Below the pieces are notes generated by a model, which was not told the origin of the DNA, ran no database searches, and was given only the letters and a program-made list of their open reading frames with translations. Source: a bacterium (GTDB lineage Bacteria > UBP4 > UBA4092 > JAOAEQ01). Taken from it: a stretch of 64,000 nt of DNA. Both the position numbers and the translations under genes were made by a program. The stretch's first letter is position 1, and the number at the start of each line of letters is the position of its first letter. Positions 5,266 to 36,419 of the stretch are shown here, piece by piece. The DNA is taken from assembly GCA_026416715.1 (NCBI GenBank), contig JAOAEQ010000015.1:1-64000 (forward strand). Reading direction: 5' to 3'.

Positions 5266-5309
5266 ATATACTATTTAGAATGTGTTATTGGGAAAAAGGA
5301 GATAAACCT

Positions 5310-14599: not shown

Positions 14600-15057
14600 A
14601 CGACGATTGAATCTAGCCCAGCATGGAATGCAAAGAAGTAGGTTGAACGATTGATTGGTTGTAGCCCTGCAAGGGCGATTGAATTTAGCCCAGCATAGAA
14701 TGCTGGGAAAGTGGAATGTGATGAGAGATAAATTAATCCCGTAGGGATGACTGAACATAGCCCAGTATGCAATACTGGGTTTTAAATGATGCATAGTTCA
14801 TCGAGTCCCGTTCGGGACGACTGATAATAATCTCGTGGTTCACCGGTTCATTCGTCCCTGAACGGGACTTCACGGTGTGGTTCCCGTATCTTATCCCAGC
14901 CATATAATGGCTGGGCTAACATCAATCATCCGCATAAAGCGGATTAACAAAAAGCATGTTACTCGCCCTGCAAGGGCGACTGAATTTAGCCCAGCATGCA
15001 ATGCTGGGAAGGAATTGTTATGAAGTTGCGTTTAGTCCCGAAAAGGACGGCTGGTGA
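14600..15057 (+). repeat. Composite palindromic repeat array, copy C (about 1.6 units)
   Basis: This is the longest array. Hairpins in order include GCCCT/AGGGC (14664-14676), CCCAGCAT/ATGCTGGG (14689-14707), ATCCC/GGGAT (14737-14748), CCCAGTAT/ATACTGGG (14761-14779), GTCCCG/CGGGAC (14806-14819), GTCCC/GGGAC (14853-14868), CCCAGCCAT/ATGGCTGGG (14895-14913), ATCCGC/GCGGAT (14928-14943), GCCCT/AGGGC (14965-14977), CCCAGCAT/ATGCTGGG (14990-15008) and GTCCCG (15034). Spacers recur with a period near 290 bases. It occupies nearly all of the 14568-15126 spacer, and no protein is encoded there. Confidence 0.78.
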
Positions 15058-26141: not shown

Positions 26142-26738
26142 TCATTTTTCAAAAATCCGAGCGACGATTTCGTCAGCAAGGTCGGTGATAAGGCGGGTGC
26201 GGGCATCCTGTTCGTTTTCATACTCGATACGGGAACGTTTGGGAACATAGGTTGTCGTAGCGAGAACTGCTTTCCGTTGCCGGATAATTTCGTTCGTGCG
26301 GGTATCTTTCAGAGTAAACGATGCGGTCAGTGATAACGAATATAAATCTACTTCACCTGAACGGTCGGTCGCCAGAATATTTTGGGTATAATTAGTTATC
26401 GTTCCGGATAAAACCACATCGGCGGTCGCAGGATTATTCACTACCTGCAACCGTTTATCCATAATCAACTCTTTCACAACCGCATTGGTTAACTTCTCTT
26501 CCATCCCATATTGGAACGTGTCGTTGCTAAACATCTGAACATATATAGTTCTCACCGAACCGGGTAGATTATTCGGCGGAATCTGCGCACAACCGGTTAT
26601 CCAGTAAGCAATAAGCAGGAGGAAGTTTGCGGTAGCGCAGATTCGGAAAAATATGCTGATAACGAAATTTTTATCCCTTTTGTGTTGAATTATTTTGTGT
26701 TGAATTATTCGGGTCATGGGCGATTTTCTCCAAATCAT
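26142..26738 (-). CDS. lptE: LptE-like LPS-assembly lipoprotein
   Basis: This protein of 198 residues (191 if started at ATG 26717) has a hydrophobic segment with a lipobox (LIAYWITGCAQIPP) and then a domain with TIYVQMFSNDTFQYGMEEKLTNAVVKELI. That fits the LptE pattern of conserved N-terminal strand, helix and the TADVVLSGTI strand. LptE plugs LptD in the outer membrane. In Escherichia coli lptE lies next to holA; here holA is two genes upstream, which supports the call. The start overlaps the kinase gene's 3' end by up to 68 bases through a 15-base tandem duplication. Confidence 0.65.
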   Translation of the reverse strand: MIWRKSPMTRIIQHKIIQHKRDKNFVISIFFRICATANFLLLIAYWITGCAQIPPNNLPGSVRTIYVQMFSNDTFQYGMEEKLTNAVVKELIMDKRLQVVNNPATADVVLSGTITNYTQNILATDRSGEVDLYSLSLTASFTLKDTRTNEIIRQRKAVLATTTYVPKRSRIEYENEQDARTRLITDLADEIVARIFEK

Positions 26739-29700
26739 TCATTAATTCTTTTGCCGTCTGATACCGCTGGTTCGGGTCTTTTTCCAGACATTTCATAATA
26801 ATTGCGGATAACGATTCCGGCACTTTTTTCGGCGGTTGCGGTTTAACATGGACATGCTGATAACTGATATTTCCCGTTGAAAATGGCGGCGAACCGGTAA
26901 CGAGTTCATAGAGCATAACGCCGAGCGAATATAAATCTGACCGACCATCAACCTGCGCTCCTTCCGTCTGTTCCGGCGACATATACAACGGGGTGCCAAT
27001 CATCGAGCCGGTCTGGGTTAATCCAGCACGTTCGAGCATCGTTGCTATTCCGAAATCGGTTATTTTAACCTGACCGGTTTCGGTCAACATAATATTTGCA
27101 GGTTTAATATCCCGATGGACAATTTTCATTGAATGCGCATAATCAAGCGCAGCACAGATCTGCAGTGCTATGTCGATAACCTCTTTCGGAGAAAACTTCT
27201 TTTTCTTCGCTAACATATCTTTAAGATTTTCCCCTTTAATATATTCCATCGAAATGAACCGACGACCGAGTTCCTCGTTCAAATCATAAATATGGACAAT
27301 ATGCGGATGCGCTAACCGTCGCGCTGACCGAACTTCCTGTTTGAACCGTTCGATAACCGTCTGGTCATAAATCAGTTCATCCGGTAAAAATTTTAAGGCA
27401 ACAAGTTCATCTAACTCTTTATCCCGTGCAAGGCAAATAATTCCCATATTTCCACGCCCGATTTCTTGGATAATCTCATAGCGAGTTTTCGTTTCTAACA
27501 CCGATGCCGGGTCGATAACCGTCGCGTCAACATCGGTAGATATCCCTGCTATTCTAGTCGCAGTTGAAGTCGGCGCGGAAGGTATCGGCATCGTTCGCAG
27601 TTTATCAATCAAATCCTTAACATCTTTATAAAGCACATCAACGGAAAAAATCTGTTCAAAAACGATTATCGCTTTCGCATACTGCCGCTGTTTCATATAA
27701 TGACACCCGATTTCATAGAGACTCTCTTTCACTTCATCGGTAAGCTGGAGTTTACTCAATTGCCGATACGCTAAATCATACAACCCTTTTTTCTGGAAAC
27801 ATAATCCGAGATATTTGGTTGATTCAGGCTCGTTATATCCGCTGCGTAATGTTTTCTGGAACTGAGCAATAGCTCGGTCAATTTCTCCTTGCATAAAGAG
27901 TATCTTACCGTATCGAAACCGAAGTTCTAGATTCGTTTCATCCTGATTGAGTTTAGCGGTATATAGTTTATCTAACTGAACGATAACGTCTTTATTTTTC
28001 GGCTGGTGTGCAAGGAGTACTTCAAAATCGGCTATTGCTGCATCGAGGTTTTCTGCCATCAGATATAGTTTCGCACGCTCTAAACGTGCAATCAGATTAT
28101 TGGGGTCTTTATCTAATATTGCGGTATAACCTTGGATAACAAAGGCAAGTTGACTGGGGTCAACTTCCGCTAATATACTCAATGAATGCAGCGCTTCCGG
28201 AATTCGGTTCAACTTTAAGTATAACGGAATAATCTGTTGATGCATGAACGGATTCGTTGGATATTTCTCTAAGAGATTTTGATATAGTGCAGAAATCAAT
28301 TCGGTATCGGTTGGATTCAATTTTTCATACGCTTGCAATTGTTCTAACGCTAAATTGAGTTCTCCTTGTTCAACATACGCTTTTGCTAACAGGAGATGAT
28401 ATATCGGTACCTGCGGTGTATCCGCAACCGCACGCTGATAGAGCGATATCGCTCGAGGTGATAAATCGTTTTGATGCGCATACGCTGTCGCTAACTCCTG
28501 AATATACGCTCGGTCGGTGTGTTCGGATTCATACACTTTTTCTAGATACATTACCGCCGTCGGATAATCTGCCATCCCTAAATAGGCTTGTCCGAGAAGC
28601 CGAAGTGCAGTTTTGTTCGCTGGACTAAACTCGAGCACTTTTTTCGCATTGGTTATCGCTTCCTGATACTTACGCTCGTAAAGATAATATCGCGCAATCG
28701 CGAGATAAAATTCAATACATTTCGGATCCCACTGAACCGCTCGCTGATAAAGTTCTACTGCATGGGCGTCGCGCTTCCCTTGCAATAAATAGAGTTGCGC
28801 AAGTTTACCTACCAGCGCTTGATTTTCCAGAATCAACGGATACGCTTCCGCATACAGGTTCATGGCAATATCATCAGTTCGGTTCAACTCAAGATACGCT
28901 TGCGCCAAGGTCATTAGCACTTCTGGATCCCGTTCACCCTGTTGCGCGAGTTTTTCAAATAGTTCGACAACGTGACGATAATCGTTCAAGGCACGATATG
29001 CACGACCTAGCGCCCGCAGAAAATATGGATTATTCCGTTTAAGTCGCAATGCTTCTTGATACAATGGAATAGCTTGTTCATCATACTTCTCGCGTTCCGC
29101 ATACGCTTTCGCTAGCATCAATGCAAGGTCTGGCTTCATCGTTCCATCCGGATTCATGAACTCTTCGGTATAAACAGCTACCGCTAAATCATCATACCGT
29201 TCCCGGACAGCGAACGCTTTTGCCAGCGCTGGACCGAGTTTATATTTTTTACGCCGATTGATATATCCGGGATATTGAGCGAGAACTTCATCTAGCAGAT
29301 TCTGGTCAAGCATCTCCCGAATGTTCTGGAGCGCTCTGCTTCTCACCAGCATTATAAACATGAACCAACTTGCAGCAAGGATAATGATACCAAGGATAGC
29401 GAGAACAACTATCGTTTTTCCAAGATGTTGTTGTGCGCTGATTTTTTGCAATCCTTTTTCGGCAGGTTTATATCTCGGGTTTAATGCAAGGATAGAAGAA
29501 AATAACGTACTTGCCTGCGACCAGTTTTTTTGGTTCATCGCGGATATCGCTTGATTGTAAAGTCGGTCAATCCTTTTGCGATTAGCGGCGATTTTCTCGT
29601 TCATTTCGGTGGCATAGGTATCATCTTTCAGCCCTGTTCGACGAAGATTAGCGCCAATCATCGGGAGTATCAGTTGCCGGGTTTGACACATCGTTGATGT

Positions 29701-30864
29701 ATGGGCAACATAAATTCTTTTTTCTTCTCCAGCAGCAACCACAATATCGAGAACACCATCGGCATCAACATCGGCGATAAGTGGCGTATGTAATGGTTTT
29801 CGACCTAACGCTACCGCAGCGATTATTTCCCCCGACTGCGGATGATATGCCCGAAGTTTCCCATCTTCACAGCCAACTACCACTTCGAAACTTTTATCAT
29901 TATTAACATCAGCGAGGACAGGATCTCCCCGACTTATCCCATAGGTAGGCATATTCCAAATCGCTGTTCCTGATTCTCCATCAAGAAAATATATCATGTT
30001 ATCCGCACTCACCACCGCAAGGTTATATCCCGCATTGTTTTTTCGGGGATATAATGCTGGTTGACCAGCGATAACTCCACCGGTCAAAAATTGCCAAAGC
30101 ATTTCACCGGTGTTCCCATTTAAACAGTACACCCGATTATCTTCACTCCCGATAACCACCTCTATTACTCCATCTTGATTGATATCAGCGACCGCTGCTG
30201 AACCAGTTATTCTACCTCGCGAACGAAATGACCATAATTTGGTTCCCGTTGCGCCGTTATATGCGTACACAAACCCATCTGCTGCGCCGATAATAATATC
30301 CGGAATCTGGTCTTGAGTTAAATCTATTACACAGGGAGTAGAATAAATCGGGCCGGTAGATTTAATGGTCTGCTGGCTCGTTCCCGTTTTACCATTAATA
30401 ATATGCAGGTATCCATTTTCGGTAGTTACCACGATATCAAGGATGGTATCGCGATTCATATCCACTACTGCCGGAGATGAACTGATTTCACCTTTACACG
30501 AACATTGCCAAACCGATTGACCGGTTCGTCCATTCAACCGATACAATCTGCCATTCGCAACGGTAACATAAATATCATAGAGACCAGAATTATCAATATC
30601 CGCTATAGCCGGCGAACTGTAAACGATACTGCGGGTTGGATATGACGTTTTCCAGAGCGGTTGTTTCGTTTTTCCATCAAACGCATAGATGTTGCCTCGG
30701 TTATCCCCGCAAACAATATCGAGCGTTTCATCGCCACTAATTTCGCCAACGGCTGGATTCCCGCTAATATATCCTTCACACTGAACCGACCAGCCAGACC
30801 GAATCACATCCGCAAAGCAAGAAGTACCTAGTACCAAGCACAAAACACTAACCACTACATACAT
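26671..30864 (-). CDS. Giant transmembrane Ser/Thr protein kinase: periplasmic beta-propeller, TM, TPR array, C-terminal kinase
   Basis: This protein of about 1397 residues starts with a signal sequence (MYVVVSVLCLVLGTSCFA). Residues about 20-420 are seven or more PQQ/FG-GAP-like units of the pattern SSPAVxDxxxDxxxDIVVxxxxGxLYxxNGxTG. A membrane segment (TIVVLAILGIIILAASWFMF) follows at about 485-505. Some 15-17 TPR-type helical pairs run to about 1080. The C-terminal kinase domain (about 1125-1390) has GRGNMG, Lys in VALKFL, HRDIKPANIM, DFGIA and GTPLYMSPEQ, so it should be active. The order is the reverse of usual bacterial PASTA kinases. ATG 30864 is chosen for the signal peptide; an in-frame start at 30987 adds 41 residues. 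It lies between holA and lptE. Confidence 0.88.
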   Translation of the reverse strand: MYVVVSVLCLVLGTSCFADVIRSGWSVQCEGYISGNPAVGEISGDETLDIVCGDNRGNIYAFDGKTKQPLWKTSYPTRSIVYSSPAIADIDNSGLYDIYVTVANGRLYRLNGRTGQSVWQCSCKGEISSSPAVVDMNRDTILDIVVTTENGYLHIINGKTGTSQQTIKSTGPIYSTPCVIDLTQDQIPDIIIGAADGFVYAYNGATGTKLWSFRSRGRITGSAAVADINQDGVIEVVIGSEDNRVYCLNGNTGEMLWQFLTGGVIAGQPALYPRKNNAGYNLAVVSADNMIYFLDGESGTAIWNMPTYGISRGDPVLADVNNDKSFEVVVGCEDGKLRAYHPQSGEIIAAVALGRKPLHTPLIADVDADGVLDIVVAAGEEKRIYVAHTSTMCQTRQLILPMIGANLRRTGLKDDTYATEMNEKIAANRKRIDRLYNQAISAMNQKNWSQASTLFSSILALNPRYKPAEKGLQKISAQQHLGKTIVVLAILGIIILAASWFMFIMLVRSRALQNIREMLDQNLLDEVLAQYPGYINRRKKYKLGPALAKAFAVRERYDDLAVAVYTEEFMNPDGTMKPDLALMLAKAYAEREKYDEQAIPLYQEALRLKRNNPYFLRALGRAYRALNDYRHVVELFEKLAQQGERDPEVLMTLAQAYLELNRTDDIAMNLYAEAYPLILENQALVGKLAQLYLLQGKRDAHAVELYQRAVQWDPKCIEFYLAIARYYLYERKYQEAITNAKKVLEFSPANKTALRLLGQAYLGMADYPTAVMYLEKVYESEHTDRAYIQELATAYAHQNDLSPRAISLYQRAVADTPQVPIYHLLLAKAYVEQGELNLALEQLQAYEKLNPTDTELISALYQNLLEKYPTNPFMHQQIIPLYLKLNRIPEALHSLSILAEVDPSQLAFVIQGYTAILDKDPNNLIARLERAKLYLMAENLDAAIADFEVLLAHQPKNKDVIVQLDKLYTAKLNQDETNLELRFRYGKILFMQGEIDRAIAQFQKTLRSGYNEPESTKYLGLCFQKKGLYDLAYRQLSKLQLTDEVKESLYEIGCHYMKQRQYAKAIIVFEQIFSVDVLYKDVKDLIDKLRTMPIPSAPTSTATRIAGISTDVDATVIDPASVLETKTRYEIIQEIGRGNMGIICLARDKELDELVALKFLPDELIYDQTVIERFKQEVRSARRLAHPHIVHIYDLNEELGRRFISMEYIKGENLKDMLAKKKKFSPKEVIDIALQICAALDYAHSMKIVHRDIKPANIMLTETGQVKITDFGIATMLERAGLTQTGSMIGTPLYMSPEQTEGAQVDGRSDLYSLGVMLYELVTGSPPFSTGNISYQHVHVKPQPPKKVPESLSAIIMKCLEKDPNQRYQTAKELMNDLEKIAHDPNNSTQNNSTQKG

Positions 30865-31024
30865 GACGCTGTTATACCTCAGATGAAAAGTAGGTAGCAT
30901 AAATCCAATACCATTTACCTGACGACGACCCAAAAACGTTAAACTTACCAAACGAAAAACGGAATGATAGATTCCCAGCGGTTTCACCGTTACGTTGTTA
31001 GCGATGAATTCTTATTATATATAG

Positions 31025-31924
31025 TTAATCACAAAATTTGATTATCCACGACTCTAACAGCAGTTCTGGGTCTTCACCCAAAATATCGGTTGCCCGAGGA
31101 TTAAGTTTATCTTCGAGTTCAACTAATTCTGCAACCGCATCTATCAGTTTCTGTCGACTGAAATTTCGCGCTTGTCGCTCAATTTTACTCTGCACAAACG
31201 GTTTCTGCTGTTTCAAATTTAATGTTGCTGATTCGGGTAACCATTCATCTGGCGCTTCGGTTGCATGCAGTAACGCTTGTAACCAAAACCGAACATAACG
31301 TGATATCATCCGATGGATACCAATCGGTTCGGTCTTATCCAGTTCAGAACGGAACAATTGGGTTACATAAGCGAGCGCTAATGCACTGTTCCTTTCGCCT
31401 AACGCATCAAGGAATTTAAACATTGAACCGGAAAAAGGAAATTCAATGATGACTCCCCGTTTTTTTATAGCGGTAAACAATGGATTGGTTTTGGCAACAG
31501 TTTTCCCTTTTTCTTTATCCTCTTCAAACGAGAAAACGAATACCGTCCAGTTCGCTTGTTGTTCATTGAAATATTCTGCAAATCGTTCGAGGTCTGCGGT
31601 TGCTTTTGCCGAGAGTTTTTTTGTGCCACCCAGAAAAGGATAATTTTCGATAATAATCACTCGACGAGAAGCTAGAAATGGATAGGTATCGCTTAACGTG
31701 ATAACCTCGAAAACATCTAAGTTTTTCCCATTAAACTCCGTTAAATTCCCATCACGGAACTCCGCCGGTATAAGCTGGTTGATTAAATTCCGTTTCGCTA
31801 AATTTAATGCGACTACATCTTCGCCGTAGAGGAGATAGACCGGTGCGATAGTACCCGATTCAACTTGGGATAGAACCGTAGCGAATTCGACCGGTTTTTC
31901 TTTTTCTTTTGATGGTGGTGGCAT
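31025..31924 (-). CDS. holA: DNA polymerase III delta subunit HolA
   Basis: This 299-residue protein has TIAPVYLLYGEDVVALNLAKRNL at the N-terminus, the usual YLLYGEE-like start of the delta clamp-loader subunit. RRVIIIENYPFL follows, and the C-terminus ends with RNFSRQKLIDAVAELVELEDKLN. Delta opens the sliding clamp in the clamp loader. It starts two bases after the nusB stop, suggesting translational coupling. Confidence 0.88.
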   Translation of the reverse strand: MPPPSKEKEKPVEFATVLSQVESGTIAPVYLLYGEDVVALNLAKRNLINQLIPAEFRDGNLTEFNGKNLDVFEVITLSDTYPFLASRRVIIIENYPFLGGTKKLSAKATADLERFAEYFNEQQANWTVFVFSFEEDKEKGKTVAKTNPLFTAIKKRGVIIEFPFSGSMFKFLDALGERNSALALAYVTQLFRSELDKTEPIGIHRMISRYVRFWLQALLHATEAPDEWLPESATLNLKQQKPFVQSKIERQARNFSRQKLIDAVAELVELEDKLNPRATDILGEDPELLLESWIIKFCD

Positions 31925-31926
31925 AA

Positions 31927-32346
31927 TTAAATCGGTTTATGTATCTTTCTCGATTTAACAATCGTATCTAAAATCCCATTGACAAACTTGCCGGAATCTT
32001 TTGTACTAAACTTTTTCGCGAGTTCAACAGCTTCATTGATGGTAACATTCACCGGGATAGTATCAAAATACAACAACTCTGCAATCGCTACCCGCAATAT
32101 GTTGCGGTCAACAACCGCTATCCGGTCGAAATTCCAATGTTTGACGGTATCGCGAATCATAGCATCGATTTCGGGGTGATGCTGAACAACTGCGGTAAGT
32201 AATTCTATCATAAAACGATTCTTGTCGTTTGAGTCAGGATTCTGCTCACAATATACCGATAATCCATTATTCAATGGTGTATCGGTAATATCTAATTGAT
32301 ACAGAAACTGTATCGCTTGTTCTCGAGCTTTCCGTCGCGTTTGCAT
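31927..32346 (-). CDS. nusB: Transcription antitermination factor NusB
   Basis: This 139-residue, all-helical protein has the family landmarks RRKAREQAIQFLYQLDIT, the central DAMIRDTVKHWNFDRIAVVDRNILRVAIAELL in parts, and the C-terminal VTINEAVELAKKFSTKDSGKFVNGILD. NusB with NusE binds boxA RNA. The ribH-nusB order is common in many bacteria. A hairpin-bearing spacer of about 180 bases separates it from ribH. Confidence 0.95.
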   Translation of the reverse strand: MQTRRKAREQAIQFLYQLDITDTPLNNGLSVYCEQNPDSNDKNRFMIELLTAVVQHHPEIDAMIRDTVKHWNFDRIAVVDRNILRVAIAELLYFDTIPVNVTINEAVELAKKFSTKDSGKFVNGILDTIVKSRKIHKPI

Positions 32347-32428
32347 AATCGATCATTCTACCTGACTTGCGTCGAGGGATATCAGGCTTTACCCTAAAGA
32401 GAAAACCACCTAACCTTACAGGATATAA

Positions 32429-32477
32429 ACCCTACGCTAACGTTCGGTCGAACACTGAAGTTTATCAACCGTAGGGT
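32429..32477 (-). other. Hairpin between ribH and nusB
   Basis: The outer arms ACCCTACG and CGTAGGGT pair perfectly, with a smaller GTTCG/CGAAC stem inside the loop. On the minus strand it follows the ribH stop by about 50 bases. No T-run follows, so it may be a processing or attenuation hairpin rather than a terminator. Confidence 0.4.
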
Positions 32478-32527
32478 AAAAAAGCCGTCGTAGAGAGAAT
32501 ATATTCTTCCTAAACTTAATTTAATTT

Positions 32528-32998
32528 CTATTCGCCTAATGCCGATTGGAGTTGTACCATCTCGATTGCGGATAATGCCGCATCCCATCCTTTATTGCCG
32601 ATTTTCGTTCCCGCACGTTCAATCGCCTGTTCGATGGTATCGGTAGTTAGTACACCGAATATGGTCGGAACTCCGGTCGTCAAATTTACCTGCGCTATCC
32701 CTTTACTAACTTCCGCAGCGATATAATCGAAATGGGGCGTCGCGCCGCGAATCACCGCACCGAGACATATCACCGCATCGTATTTTTTCGCTTTTGCAAT
32801 TTGCATCGCTATCCCCGGAATCTCAAATGAACCCGGTACCCAAACTACCACAATATTTTTATCATCTGCCCCGTGTCGGGTTAAACAATCGAGTGCGCCA
32901 TCTAGCAATTTTCCCGAGATAAACTCGTTGAACCGACTGATGACTATCGCAAATTTTTTCCCGCTCGCATCAAGTTTCCCTTGATATACCTTTGGCAT
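32528..32998 (-). CDS. ribH: 6,7-dimethyl-8-ribityllumazine synthase RibH
   Basis: This 156-residue protein has [20 protein letters not shown] (substrate-binding start), [30 protein letters not shown] (catalytic His region) and [21 protein letters not shown]. It condenses the butanone phosphate made by RibBA with the pyrimidine from RibD. AGGAGG six bases upstream of ATG 32998 fixes the start. It is fourth in the FMN-regulated operon. Confidence 0.96.
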
Positions 32999-33073
32999 AA
33001 TCAACCTCCTCTTTATGATAGAACGGATGGACGCTAGAACTTTCTGGTCTTCCGTCCCATTGTTTCTTTATTC

Positions 33074-34270
33074 TTACGTTATCAAATGGCCTAATTTTTC
33101 CTTTTTACTTTTTAAATATTTCTGATTGATTGGCGTTCTCCCAACTTCTAATGGAACCCGTTCAACAACTTTTAATCCATACCCTTCTAATCCGATGATT
33201 TTCCGTGGATTATTGGTTATCAACCGAATCGTGGTCAACCCTAAATCAACGAGAATTTGCGCTCCGATTCCATAATCTCGTAAATCCGGTTTAAATCCGA
33301 GCCGTTCGTTCGCCTCAACGGTATCGAGCCCTTCTTCCTGCAAGACATACGCCCGCAATTTATTCTGCAACCCAATTCCACGCCCTTCCTGCCGCATATA
33401 GAGCAGCACACCGAGTTTCTCGCGTTCGATCATTTCCAATGCGGTCGCAAGTTGCTCGCCACAATCGCAACGTAACGAATGGAATACATCACCGGTTAAA
33501 CATTCTGAATGTACCCGAACTAAAACATTCTGTTTTCCGGCAACTTCTCCTTTAACCAACGCCAGATGATATTGGTTATCAATGGTAGTTTCGTATCCGA
33601 TAAGTTTAAATTCACCGAATTTTGTCGGGAACCGAACGGTTACCGCGCGACTGACTAATTTCTCGGTTTTCCGCCGATATGCAATTAAATCTTTGATAGT
33701 GATTATAACCAAATTATGTCGTTTTGCGAAAGCTAATAATTGCGGCACTCGAGCCATTGTTCCATCTTCGTTTAAAATTTCACAGATTACCCCTGCCGGA
33801 TATAAGCCCGCTAATTTCGCTAAATCTACCGCCGCTTCAGTATGTCCCGCTCGAGCTAGAACTCCTCCTTCCTGCGCTTTCAATGGGAAAATATGTCCCG
33901 GTTTGACTAAATCTTCCGGTTTGGTTTTCGGGTCGAGCACTACCCGAATGGTATGCGCACGGTCTTGTGCGGAAATACCGGTGGTAATCCCATATTTCGC
34001 ATCGATTGAAACGGTAAAGGCAGTCTCAAGATGGCTCGTATTTTTCAAGACCATCGGGGTTATCTGCAATTCTTCTAACCGTTTCGCATGGATGGGTAAA
34101 CAGATTAATCCGCGACCGTGCATTGCCATAAAGTTTATCGCTGCTGGCGTAACCTTTTCAGCTGCCATAACCAAATCGCCTTCATTCTCCCGGTCTTCAT
34201 CGTCAACAACCACCACCATTTTCCCCTTTTTAATCTCTTGAATTGCTTCTTCAATGGTATTAAATTTCAT
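33074..34270 (-). CDS. ribBA: Bifunctional 3,4-DHBP synthase / GTP cyclohydrolase II RibBA
   Basis: This protein is about 398 residues long. The N-terminal DHBP synthase domain (about 1-200) has [28 protein letters not shown] and [14 protein letters not shown]. The C-terminal GTP cyclohydrolase II domain has the zinc Cys motif [18 protein letters not shown] and [14 protein letters not shown]. Both active sites look complete, so it supplies both riboflavin precursors. The start is ATG 34270 or ATG 34276 (MTMKF); neither has a strong Shine-Dalgarno. It follows ribE after about 15 bases. Confidence 0.95.
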
Positions 34271-34289
34271 AGTCATTTTAATGGTAAAC

Positions 34290-34886
34290 TTATCGATAGA
34301 TTTGGGTAATTTGTTTGATGATATATTTAGCTAAGATATCCGTTTCAATATTAACGAAACTCCCAACCGTCTTATTTCCTAACGTAGTCTGTTCTCGCGT
34401 AAACGGAATTAACGCTACCCGAAAACTATCTCTGGTCACATCGACTACCGTCAAACTCACGCCGTCAACTGCAATGCTTCCTTTAGGAACGATATAGTGT
34501 ACCAGCTCGGAAGGAACGGTAATTTGCAGTTCGAATGTATCCGATTGCCGAATTATTCTGCTAATCTTGCCGACTCCATCAACATGCCCCTGGACAAAAT
34601 GACCATGGAATCGGTCGTGCATTTGCATTGCGCGTTCTAAATTCACGGGGTCGCCTACTTTAACGTGAGAAAACGTTGTCCGTTGAACGGTTTCCGGAAT
34701 AATATCCGCTTCGAAACCAGAGCCGGTGAAGGTTACCACCGTTAAACAGACCCCGTTCACCGCAATACTATCCCCAATCTTGAGACCGGATAAAACTTTC
34801 GCCGCTTCAATCTGGATATGGAGCGACTGATTCAATCGCAACATTCGCCTGATTTTACCAACTTCTTCAATAATTCCAGTAAACAT
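34290..34886 (-). CDS. ribE: Riboflavin synthase alpha chain
   Basis: This 198-residue protein begins [12 protein letters not shown], the canonical N-terminus. It contains two internally similar lumazine-binding halves: [14 protein letters not shown] and [14 protein letters not shown] mark the same position in each. [15 protein letters not shown] is the substrate-binding segment. It dismutates two lumazines to riboflavin. The start at ATG 34886 is chosen by the conserved N-terminus over the longer frame to 34934. Confidence 0.95.
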
Positions 34887-34941
34887 GCGCTCAATCCACG
34901 GAAAAACAATAGAACTTAAGCTCGATAAACTCATTGGGAAA

Positions 34942-36096
34942 TCATGTTGTTCTTCTGTTCCTTCGTTCTTCCATTCCTTCGTTCTTCCGTTCTTCCGTTT
35001 TTCGGTTCATATACGCTTCAATTTTAATATCTTCACCTAATTTCGTTACCGAAACCTCATACAATCGGAACGCATCACGTAATTTCGTAATACCTTTTCC
35101 TCCAATCGCACTTAATGCTTCTTGTCCTCCGATTAGTTTAGGCGCTAGATATAATATCACCTTATCAATCAATCCCGCAGATAAACAACTCCACGCGAGC
35201 GTTGCGCCTCCTTCTATAAGCACAGATTGAACTTGTTCTTTTCCCAACCGAGTAAATAAGGCACGGAGATTAACCCCATCTCGGTTGCGTGGCAGAACCC
35301 AGACGGCAACCCCAGCGGTGGTAAATAGGTTAATTCGATTCGAGGACGCGCGTCGCGTTGTTGCCAGAATGGTTTCAGCTGGGTTTACACGAAATACCCG
35401 AGCGGTTATTGGAACTCGGGCGATACTATCAACCACAATCCGTTTCGGTTGTCGGCCATGATACTGGGGAATACGAACGGTGAGTTCTGGGTCATCATGA
35501 ATCACGGTATTTGCGCCAACGATAATCGCATCTACCCCAGCTCGAAGATAATGGACATCGTGTCTTGAAACTGCACTGGTTATCCAACGCGATTCTCCGG
35601 TGCGAGTAGCGATTTTCCCATCGAAACTCATTCCGAGTTTTAAGATACCATACGGTAGCCCGGTTCGGATATATTTAAAAAATGGTTCATTCAGTTTTTT
35701 CGCTTCCGACTCATGGATCCCAACTGCAACTGTAACTCCAGCGTTCCGTAACTGCTTGATACCTTTCCCGTTAACCAGCGGATTCGGGTCTCGAACCGCA
35801 ACGATAACCTTTGTTATTCCCGATTGAATTATCCGATCAGTACATGGCGGCGTTTTCCCATAATGACAACACGGTTCTAAGGTAACATAGAGAGTTGCCC
35901 CTTTCGCTTGAGCGCCTGCTTGTTCAAGAGCGATGATTTCCGCATGGGCACCGCCGGCATAGTGATGATATCCCTGCCCAACGATTTTCCCATTTTTAAC
36001 TAATACAGCGCCTACCATCGGGTTCGGGCTAGTTGTTCCATATCCTTTTTTCGCTAACTCGAGCGCTAGGCGCATATACTCTGAATCACGAGCCAT
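34942..36096 (-). CDS. ribD: Bifunctional riboflavin deaminase/reductase RibD
   Basis: This protein is about 384 residues long. The deaminase domain has TTSPNPMVGAVLV, zinc ligands HAEI and PCCHYGKTPPC. The reductase domain (about 145-360) has LKLGMSFDGKIATRTGESRWIT, IIVGANTVIHDDPELTVR and VLIEGGATLAWS. The last 20 or so residues (NRKTEERKNEG...) lie outside the family's normal end and are encoded by GAACGAA-type repeat DNA at about 34945-35005. It is first in the operon behind the FMN riboswitch. ATG 36096 is used; an in-frame start at 36114 is possible, and no clear Shine-Dalgarno is visible. Confidence 0.94.
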   Translation of the reverse strand: MARDSEYMRLALELAKKGYGTTSPNPMVGAVLVKNGKIVGQGYHHYAGGAHAEIIALEQAGAQAKGATLYVTLEPCCHYGKTPPCTDRIIQSGITKVIVAVRDPNPLVNGKGIKQLRNAGVTVAVGIHESEAKKLNEPFFKYIRTGLPYGILKLGMSFDGKIATRTGESRWITSAVSRHDVHYLRAGVDAIIVGANTVIHDDPELTVRIPQYHGRQPKRIVVDSIARVPITARVFRVNPAETILATTRRASSNRINLFTTAGVAVWVLPRNRDGVNLRALFTRLGKEQVQSVLIEGGATLAWSCLSAGLIDKVILYLAPKLIGGQEALSAIGGKGITKLRDAFRLYEVSVTKLGEDIKIEAYMNRKTEERKNEGMEERRNRRTT

Positions 36097-36123
36097 AGTA
36101 CCGTATAAAACCAAATCGGCTTG

Positions 36124-36261: not shown

Positions 36262-36269
36262 AAATAATG

Positions 36270-36396
36270 TACCCTCTTTCATCCAGACTATAACTGTCGG
36301 CGCTGGAATTTCACCAGCTCAATCCCTAACCTAAAGTATGTAAGAGATAGGTGGGCTATACCACCGGTAAGGAATTTCACCTAACCCTGAAGGTTT
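36270..36396 (-). ncRNA. FMN riboswitch (RFN element)
   Basis: The minus strand carries the class hallmarks in order: TTCAGGGTTAGGTGAAATTC, ACCGGTGGTATAGCCC, a variable arm, GCTGGTGAAATTCCAGC, GCCGACAGTTATAGTC and GGATGAAAGAGG. It lies about 175 bases upstream of ribD and downstream of a good promoter. It should lower ribD-ribE-ribBA-ribH expression when FMN binds. Confidence 0.96.
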
Positions 36397-36419
36397 TTCT
36401 GATATTCAATTATACTAAA

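Follow-up and report, generated by a model that had tools for sequence, protein, structure and literature searches.

A receptor-type Ser/Thr kinase family with an N-terminal propeller, a TPR solenoid and a C-terminal kinase domain, conserved across two bacterial phyla

What kind of protein is encoded by the very long kinase gene that lies between holA and lptE in this window (the whole 64,000-nt stretch of DNA that was analysed), and does its position beside an LPS transport gene say anything about its function? The initial annotation had described a PQQ/FG-GAP-like propeller outside the membrane, followed by a membrane helix, about 15 to 17 TPR pairs and a kinase domain at the C terminus, and had suggested envelope sensing tied to LPS transport. 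The features of the locus are as follows.

26142 to 26738, minus strand: lptE (PF04390, 1e-17, 65.4 bits against a cut-off of 23), downstream of the kinase gene
26671 to 30864, minus strand: gene for the receptor-type kinase (propeller-TM-TPR-Ser/Thr kinase), encoding 1397 aa when started at the ATG at 30864
26737 to 27480, minus strand: C-terminal Hanks-type Ser/Thr kinase domain, with GRGNMG, VALK, HRDIKPAN, DFG and GTPLYMSPEQ
27583 to 29331, minus strand: predicted cytoplasmic TPR solenoid of about 15 to 17 helix pairs
29347 to 29412, minus strand: single transmembrane helix predicted from hydropathy, at about residues 526 to 547 of the 1438-aa reading frame
29692 to 30810, minus strand: predicted periplasmic beta-propeller, eight blades predicted, with mixed PQQ and FG-GAP repeats and Asp-rich loops
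30811 to 30864, minus strand: predicted signal peptide MYVVVSVLCLVLGTSCFA, from sequence and hydropathy
31025 to 31924, minus strand: holA (DNA polymerase III delta), upstream neighbour of the kinase gene
31927 to 36114, minus strand: nusB, ribH, ribBA, ribE and ribD, named by sequence recognition and conserved order, which is that of the second genome of the phylum (G001)
36267 to 36398, minus strand: FMN riboswitch at the head of the cluster, with an equivalent in G001 at L038 3990-4112 (plus strand)

The kinase reading frame (26671-30987, minus strand) is open to a GTG at 30987, which would give 1438 aa, and the ATG at 30864 appears to be a reasonable start because a GAGGT Shine-Dalgarno-like stretch lies upstream of it. 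A further in-frame ATG about 38 nt upstream of 30864 would give the signal peptide a more basic n-region; the hydropathy profile places the signal-peptide-like segment at residues 44-62 and the transmembrane helix at 526-544 in the numbering of the 1438-aa frame. The Pfam Pkinase model (PF00069) matched residues 1170-1417 (2.6e-61, 207.7 bits against a cut-off of 31.7), many TPR families matched the middle of the protein, and FG-GAP_3, PQQ_2 and Beta-prop matches fell in its N-terminal third. The Gly loop, the VAxK lysine, HRD, DFG and the activation-loop GTxxYMSPEQ are all present, and, judged by these motifs, the protein is apparently an active Hanks-type Ser/Thr kinase.

Structure models, each made from one sequence, gave a consistent picture of the N-terminal and central parts, with the kinase and the first TPRs modelled poorly without an alignment. 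AlphaFold2 predicted an eight-bladed propeller (pLDDT 67), its ring closed by the first strand and its blades counted from the strand list, with three helices between the propeller and the membrane. Foldseek matched the modelled ectodomain best with BamB and YxaL, at 16-21% identity; since designed propellers and WD-type proteins matched as well, this likeness is one of fold. Both BamB and YxaL are eight-bladed propellers like the model, but they are stand-alone proteins with no kinase, and the BamB model TIGR03300 gave the window protein 95 bits against a cut-off of 285.2. A second AlphaFold2 model of the solenoid contained about 30 regular TPR helices, that is, 15-17 pairs, with pLDDT near 90 in its middle; the best-conserved stretch of the solenoid is its last 100 residues or so. 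Pfam, hydropathy and AlphaFold2 together give a C-terminal kinase behind the membrane helix and TPR pairs, and the Pfam repeats, signal peptide and transmembrane helix bear out, as a predicted topology, a propeller outside the membrane.

Several known kinases share parts of this anatomy. AfsK and RqkA have an N-terminal kinase and a C-terminal propeller. Together with PknD, they combine a Hanks-type kinase with a beta-propeller, as the window protein does, but in these three the kinase is N-terminal, the propeller is C-terminal and no long TPR solenoid is present, whereas the window protein has the inverted order with 15-17 TPR pairs in between. Against the AfsK model it scored 157 bits, below the cut-off of 1300, with its propeller N-terminal and its kinase C-terminal. 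The PASTA kinases PknB and Stk1 have the same single-pass receptor layout, and of the NCBIfam models theirs, NF033483, comes nearest to the kinase domain (346 bits, below the cut-off of 450). Their order, N-terminal kinase, transmembrane segment and extracellular PASTA domains, is again the reverse, and PASTA domains were absent from the best 25 of the 31 Pfam families matched by the window protein. The extracellular sensor of PknD is a six-bladed propeller (residues 403-664; PMC3601408), RqkA activity is raised by PQQ in vitro (PMC11007091), and a classification paper names TPRs as a common kinase partner and mentions the PknD propeller (PMC2877116). TPR- and PQQ-containing kinases appear in a survey of prokaryotic kinase architectures, which reports PQQ-repeat kinases from Deinococcus and Streptomyces (PMC1262709). 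The propeller-TM-TPR-kinase layout was not among the architectures in the passages found there, which is weak evidence given the partial literature coverage.

We therefore looked beyond the window for the same layout. The comparison within the window's phylum comprised two genomes, and the second of these, G001, encodes a full-length orthologue of 1411 aa and 35% identity, its domains arranged as in the window protein. A profile built from three members was then searched against 40 genomes of a second phylum, that of genome G013, and in 36 of them a long reading frame matched most of the TPR-kinase part; 28 of these frames are about 1,520-1,830 aa long and the other eight are shorter, several of them at contig ends. 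The transmembrane helix lies at the same place in the orthologues. An exported propeller, a single transmembrane helix, TPRs and a C-terminal kinase in one reading frame were found, on the basis of hydropathy and kinase motif, in the window, in G001 and in 27 near-full-length second-phylum orthologues, in which the helix lies mid-protein and the kinase motif at the C-terminal end. Among 16 members scanned with Pfam, all had Pkinase and TPR matches, 13 had FG-GAP_3 and 11 had PQQ_2. All 16 aligned relatives share the catalytic lysine, HRD, Asn and DFG without exception, so that a loss of catalytic residues, which would have spoken against the proposal, was not seen. The ectodomain sequence is variable and poorly conserved; the kinase and the terminal TPR cap are conserved, the kinase most of all. 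The propeller-TM-TPR-kinases form a genuine receptor family, conserved over a long time and present in nearly every genome of one phylum and in both genomes compared from another; its domain order and its great length are unusual, and in kind it is an ordinary variant of the receptor Ser/Thr kinase. In a comparison of RpoB sequences the second phylum did not stand out as the nearest to that of the window, and hence shared descent and ancient transfer between phyla both stand.

Across 386 genomes, apparently a broad sample with few genomes per group and thin coverage of large phyla, full-length matches occurred only in the window's phylum and the second phylum, and a propeller-plus-TM profile was covered in full only in the window's phylum and in three second-phylum genomes. 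At the fetched loci of nine other partial propeller matches the kinase motif was absent from every reading frame, and a whole-protein scan of genome contigs returned only kinase-domain relatives. Because large phyla were thinly sampled, further cases of the layout are likely elsewhere. The claim of a reverse order holds against PknB, PknD and AfsK, but a kinase at the tail end behind TPRs is common in itself: we met TM-TPR-kinases, an HSP70-TPR-kinase and a CHASE2-kinase. Bacterial TPR-kinases (e.g., those of G041, G045 and G109) and the HSP70-TPR-kinase share the TPR cap and the C-terminal kinase with the window protein but are without the exported propeller. One such gene, at L041 7399-10848 (plus strand), encodes an N-terminal HSP70 linked via TPRs to a Ser/Thr kinase at the C terminus (1149 aa in all), and reading frames of about 1,150-1,300 aa are among the matches listed for many genomes of its phylum.

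In a tree, the propeller kinases, one HSP70-kinase and a TM-TPR-kinase of G001 formed one branch (98% SH-aLRT), and a single clade of propeller kinases was not rejected (p-AU 0.336). A similar domain order, PQQ-propeller-TPR-TM-TPR-kinase, occurs in genome G356 of a third phylum (L183 4806-8588, plus strand; one of four genomes of that phylum), where the N-terminal part is a separate reading frame with a break near 5279/5292, which is due to a sequencing error or else to decay of the gene. The G356 gene adjoins valS-like and FHA-like genes. We ruled it out as an orthologue, as it falls outside the main branch. The statement that no described system has this exact layout goes uncontradicted in the literature searched, which was covered in part.

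The neighbourhood of the gene is shared by the two genomes of the window's phylum. In G001, as in the window, the order is FMN riboswitch-ribD-ribE-ribBA-ribH-nusB-holA-kinase-lptE, the lptE neighbour matching PF04390 with 48.2 bits. The overlap of kinase and lptE reported earlier amounts to 68 nt in the window, or 47 nt if lptE starts at an inner ATG at 26717; it is 20 nt in G001, where the kinase reading frame also starts within the end of holA. As architecture, gene order and overlap recur in an orthologue only 35% identical, the arrangement in the window is not due to chance. A pattern scan of the window found no terminator-like sites on the coding strand in the intergenic gaps from ribD to lptE. 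Lying just before lptE in a housekeeping cluster headed by an FMN riboswitch, the kinase gene is probably co-transcribed with lptE in this phylum; such co-transcription is co-expression and is no evidence that LPS export is a target of the kinase. With the riboswitch at the head of the cluster in both genomes, FMN may influence transcription through to the kinase and lptE. Elsewhere in the window, the Acido-Lenti-1 RNA motif (RF01687) occurs three times within 350 bases (14663-15008, minus strand).

This adjacency does not extend beyond the phylum. Among 30 lptE loci, taken from one genome each of 30 different families including that of the window, a kinase stands beside lptE only in the window, and none adjoins it at the other 29. 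The neighbours of lptE at these loci include leuS in at least 12 and holA in at least 7 by sequence comparison, both counts being lower bounds given how short the loci are and how fast holA diverges. The gene had been described as inserted between holA and lptE; holA is indeed upstream and lptE downstream, but this wording implies a standard holA-lptE pair, and the order met at other lptE loci is leuS-lptE-holA rather than holA-X-lptE. In the second phylum the orthologue is without conserved neighbours, its flanking genes varying by genus, and in G013 about 1.58 Mb separates lptE, at 0.35 Mb, from the kinase, at 1.94 Mb. The kinase-lptE adjacency is thus lineage specific and a weak functional clue, and with the same kinase found elsewhere without an lptE neighbour, LPS transport is not established as its core function. 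The literature searched, of partial coverage, contained nothing on links between kinases and LptE.

We consider it probable that the protein is a receptor Ser/Thr kinase that senses the periplasm, with a C-terminal kinase and a TPR solenoid serving as a substrate scaffold. The N-terminal beta-propeller would be exported into the periplasm by the signal peptide and would bind a ligand or an envelope protein there; one helix through the inner membrane would carry the signal; the cytoplasmic TPR solenoid, as scaffold and spacer, may recruit substrates or promote dimerisation; and the kinase, joined to the conserved terminal TPR cap, would phosphorylate cytoplasmic targets. Ligand sensing, activation and substrates are what we infer here, and a variable ectodomain combined with a conserved kinase and TPR cap fits a sensor that changes while the output stays fixed. 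Weighing against such sensing are the single-sequence structure models, with a pLDDT of 67 for the propeller. Since propellers can be structural adaptors too, the role of the ectodomain could be to position the protein instead of sensing. We think it unlikely that the protein is a scaffold in the main, its propeller localising it or contacting a partner, its TPR solenoid the chief part and its kinase setting an assembly state: the poorly conserved propeller, the very long TPR region and the G001 paralogue that keeps TM-TPR-kinase without a propeller would suit such a role, but conservation is highest in the kinase and its motifs.

The suggested tie to LPS transport draws on the fact that the kinase and lptE genes adjoin and overlap in both genomes of the window's phylum, and the solved folds nearest to the propeller are mostly those of BamB. 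On these grounds the kinase could be a monitor of envelope assembly, its BamB-like propeller docking on a component of outer-membrane assembly or LPS transport and its kinase tuning how LPS is made or exported, while lptE is co-expressed. We hold this to be quite unlikely, as the second-phylum orthologue has no conserved neighbours and lies far from lptE in G013, the BamB likeness is that of any eight-bladed propeller (about 18% identity, with TIGR03300 far under its cut-off) and the cluster holds unrelated housekeeping genes too. The broader form, in which the kinase would be a core receptor of both phyla, monitoring outer-membrane or LPS assembly through its BamB-like propeller and regulating LPS export by phosphorylation, the gene having become fixed beside lptE in one of them, strikes us as very improbable. 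For the neighbourhood taken by itself, a rearrangement in the ancestor of the phylum may have put the kinase between holA and lptE with no functional tie, which is compatible with a periplasm-sensing kinase and which we regard as an even call: it agrees with the lack of conserved neighbours in the second phylum and of a kinase at the 29 other lptE loci, but tight packing and an overlap kept at 35% identity, in the two genomes compared, suggest selection.

If the periplasm-sensing reading is true, these lineages, whose signalling is essentially unstudied, would have long kept a Ser/Thr phospho-signalling route in which a variable sensor is mounted on a fixed TPR-kinase module. Against this reading, PP2C_2 phosphatases were not found in the window's genome, although kinases are able to work without a partner phosphatase. 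Both genomes of the phylum encode a tandem double-FHA protein beside a comF-like gene (L220 1408-2499 and L219 1438-2463), a possible candidate for a phosphothreonine reader. In G001, the gene for the TM-TPR-kinase without a propeller (L040 3614-8637, minus strand) adjoins one for a 703-aa FHA protein. A further protein, encoded at L002 73-2142 (minus strand) and the only other Pkinase match in its genome, has by eye a kinase at its N terminus, a membrane segment and a C terminus resembling sulfatase-modifying factors.
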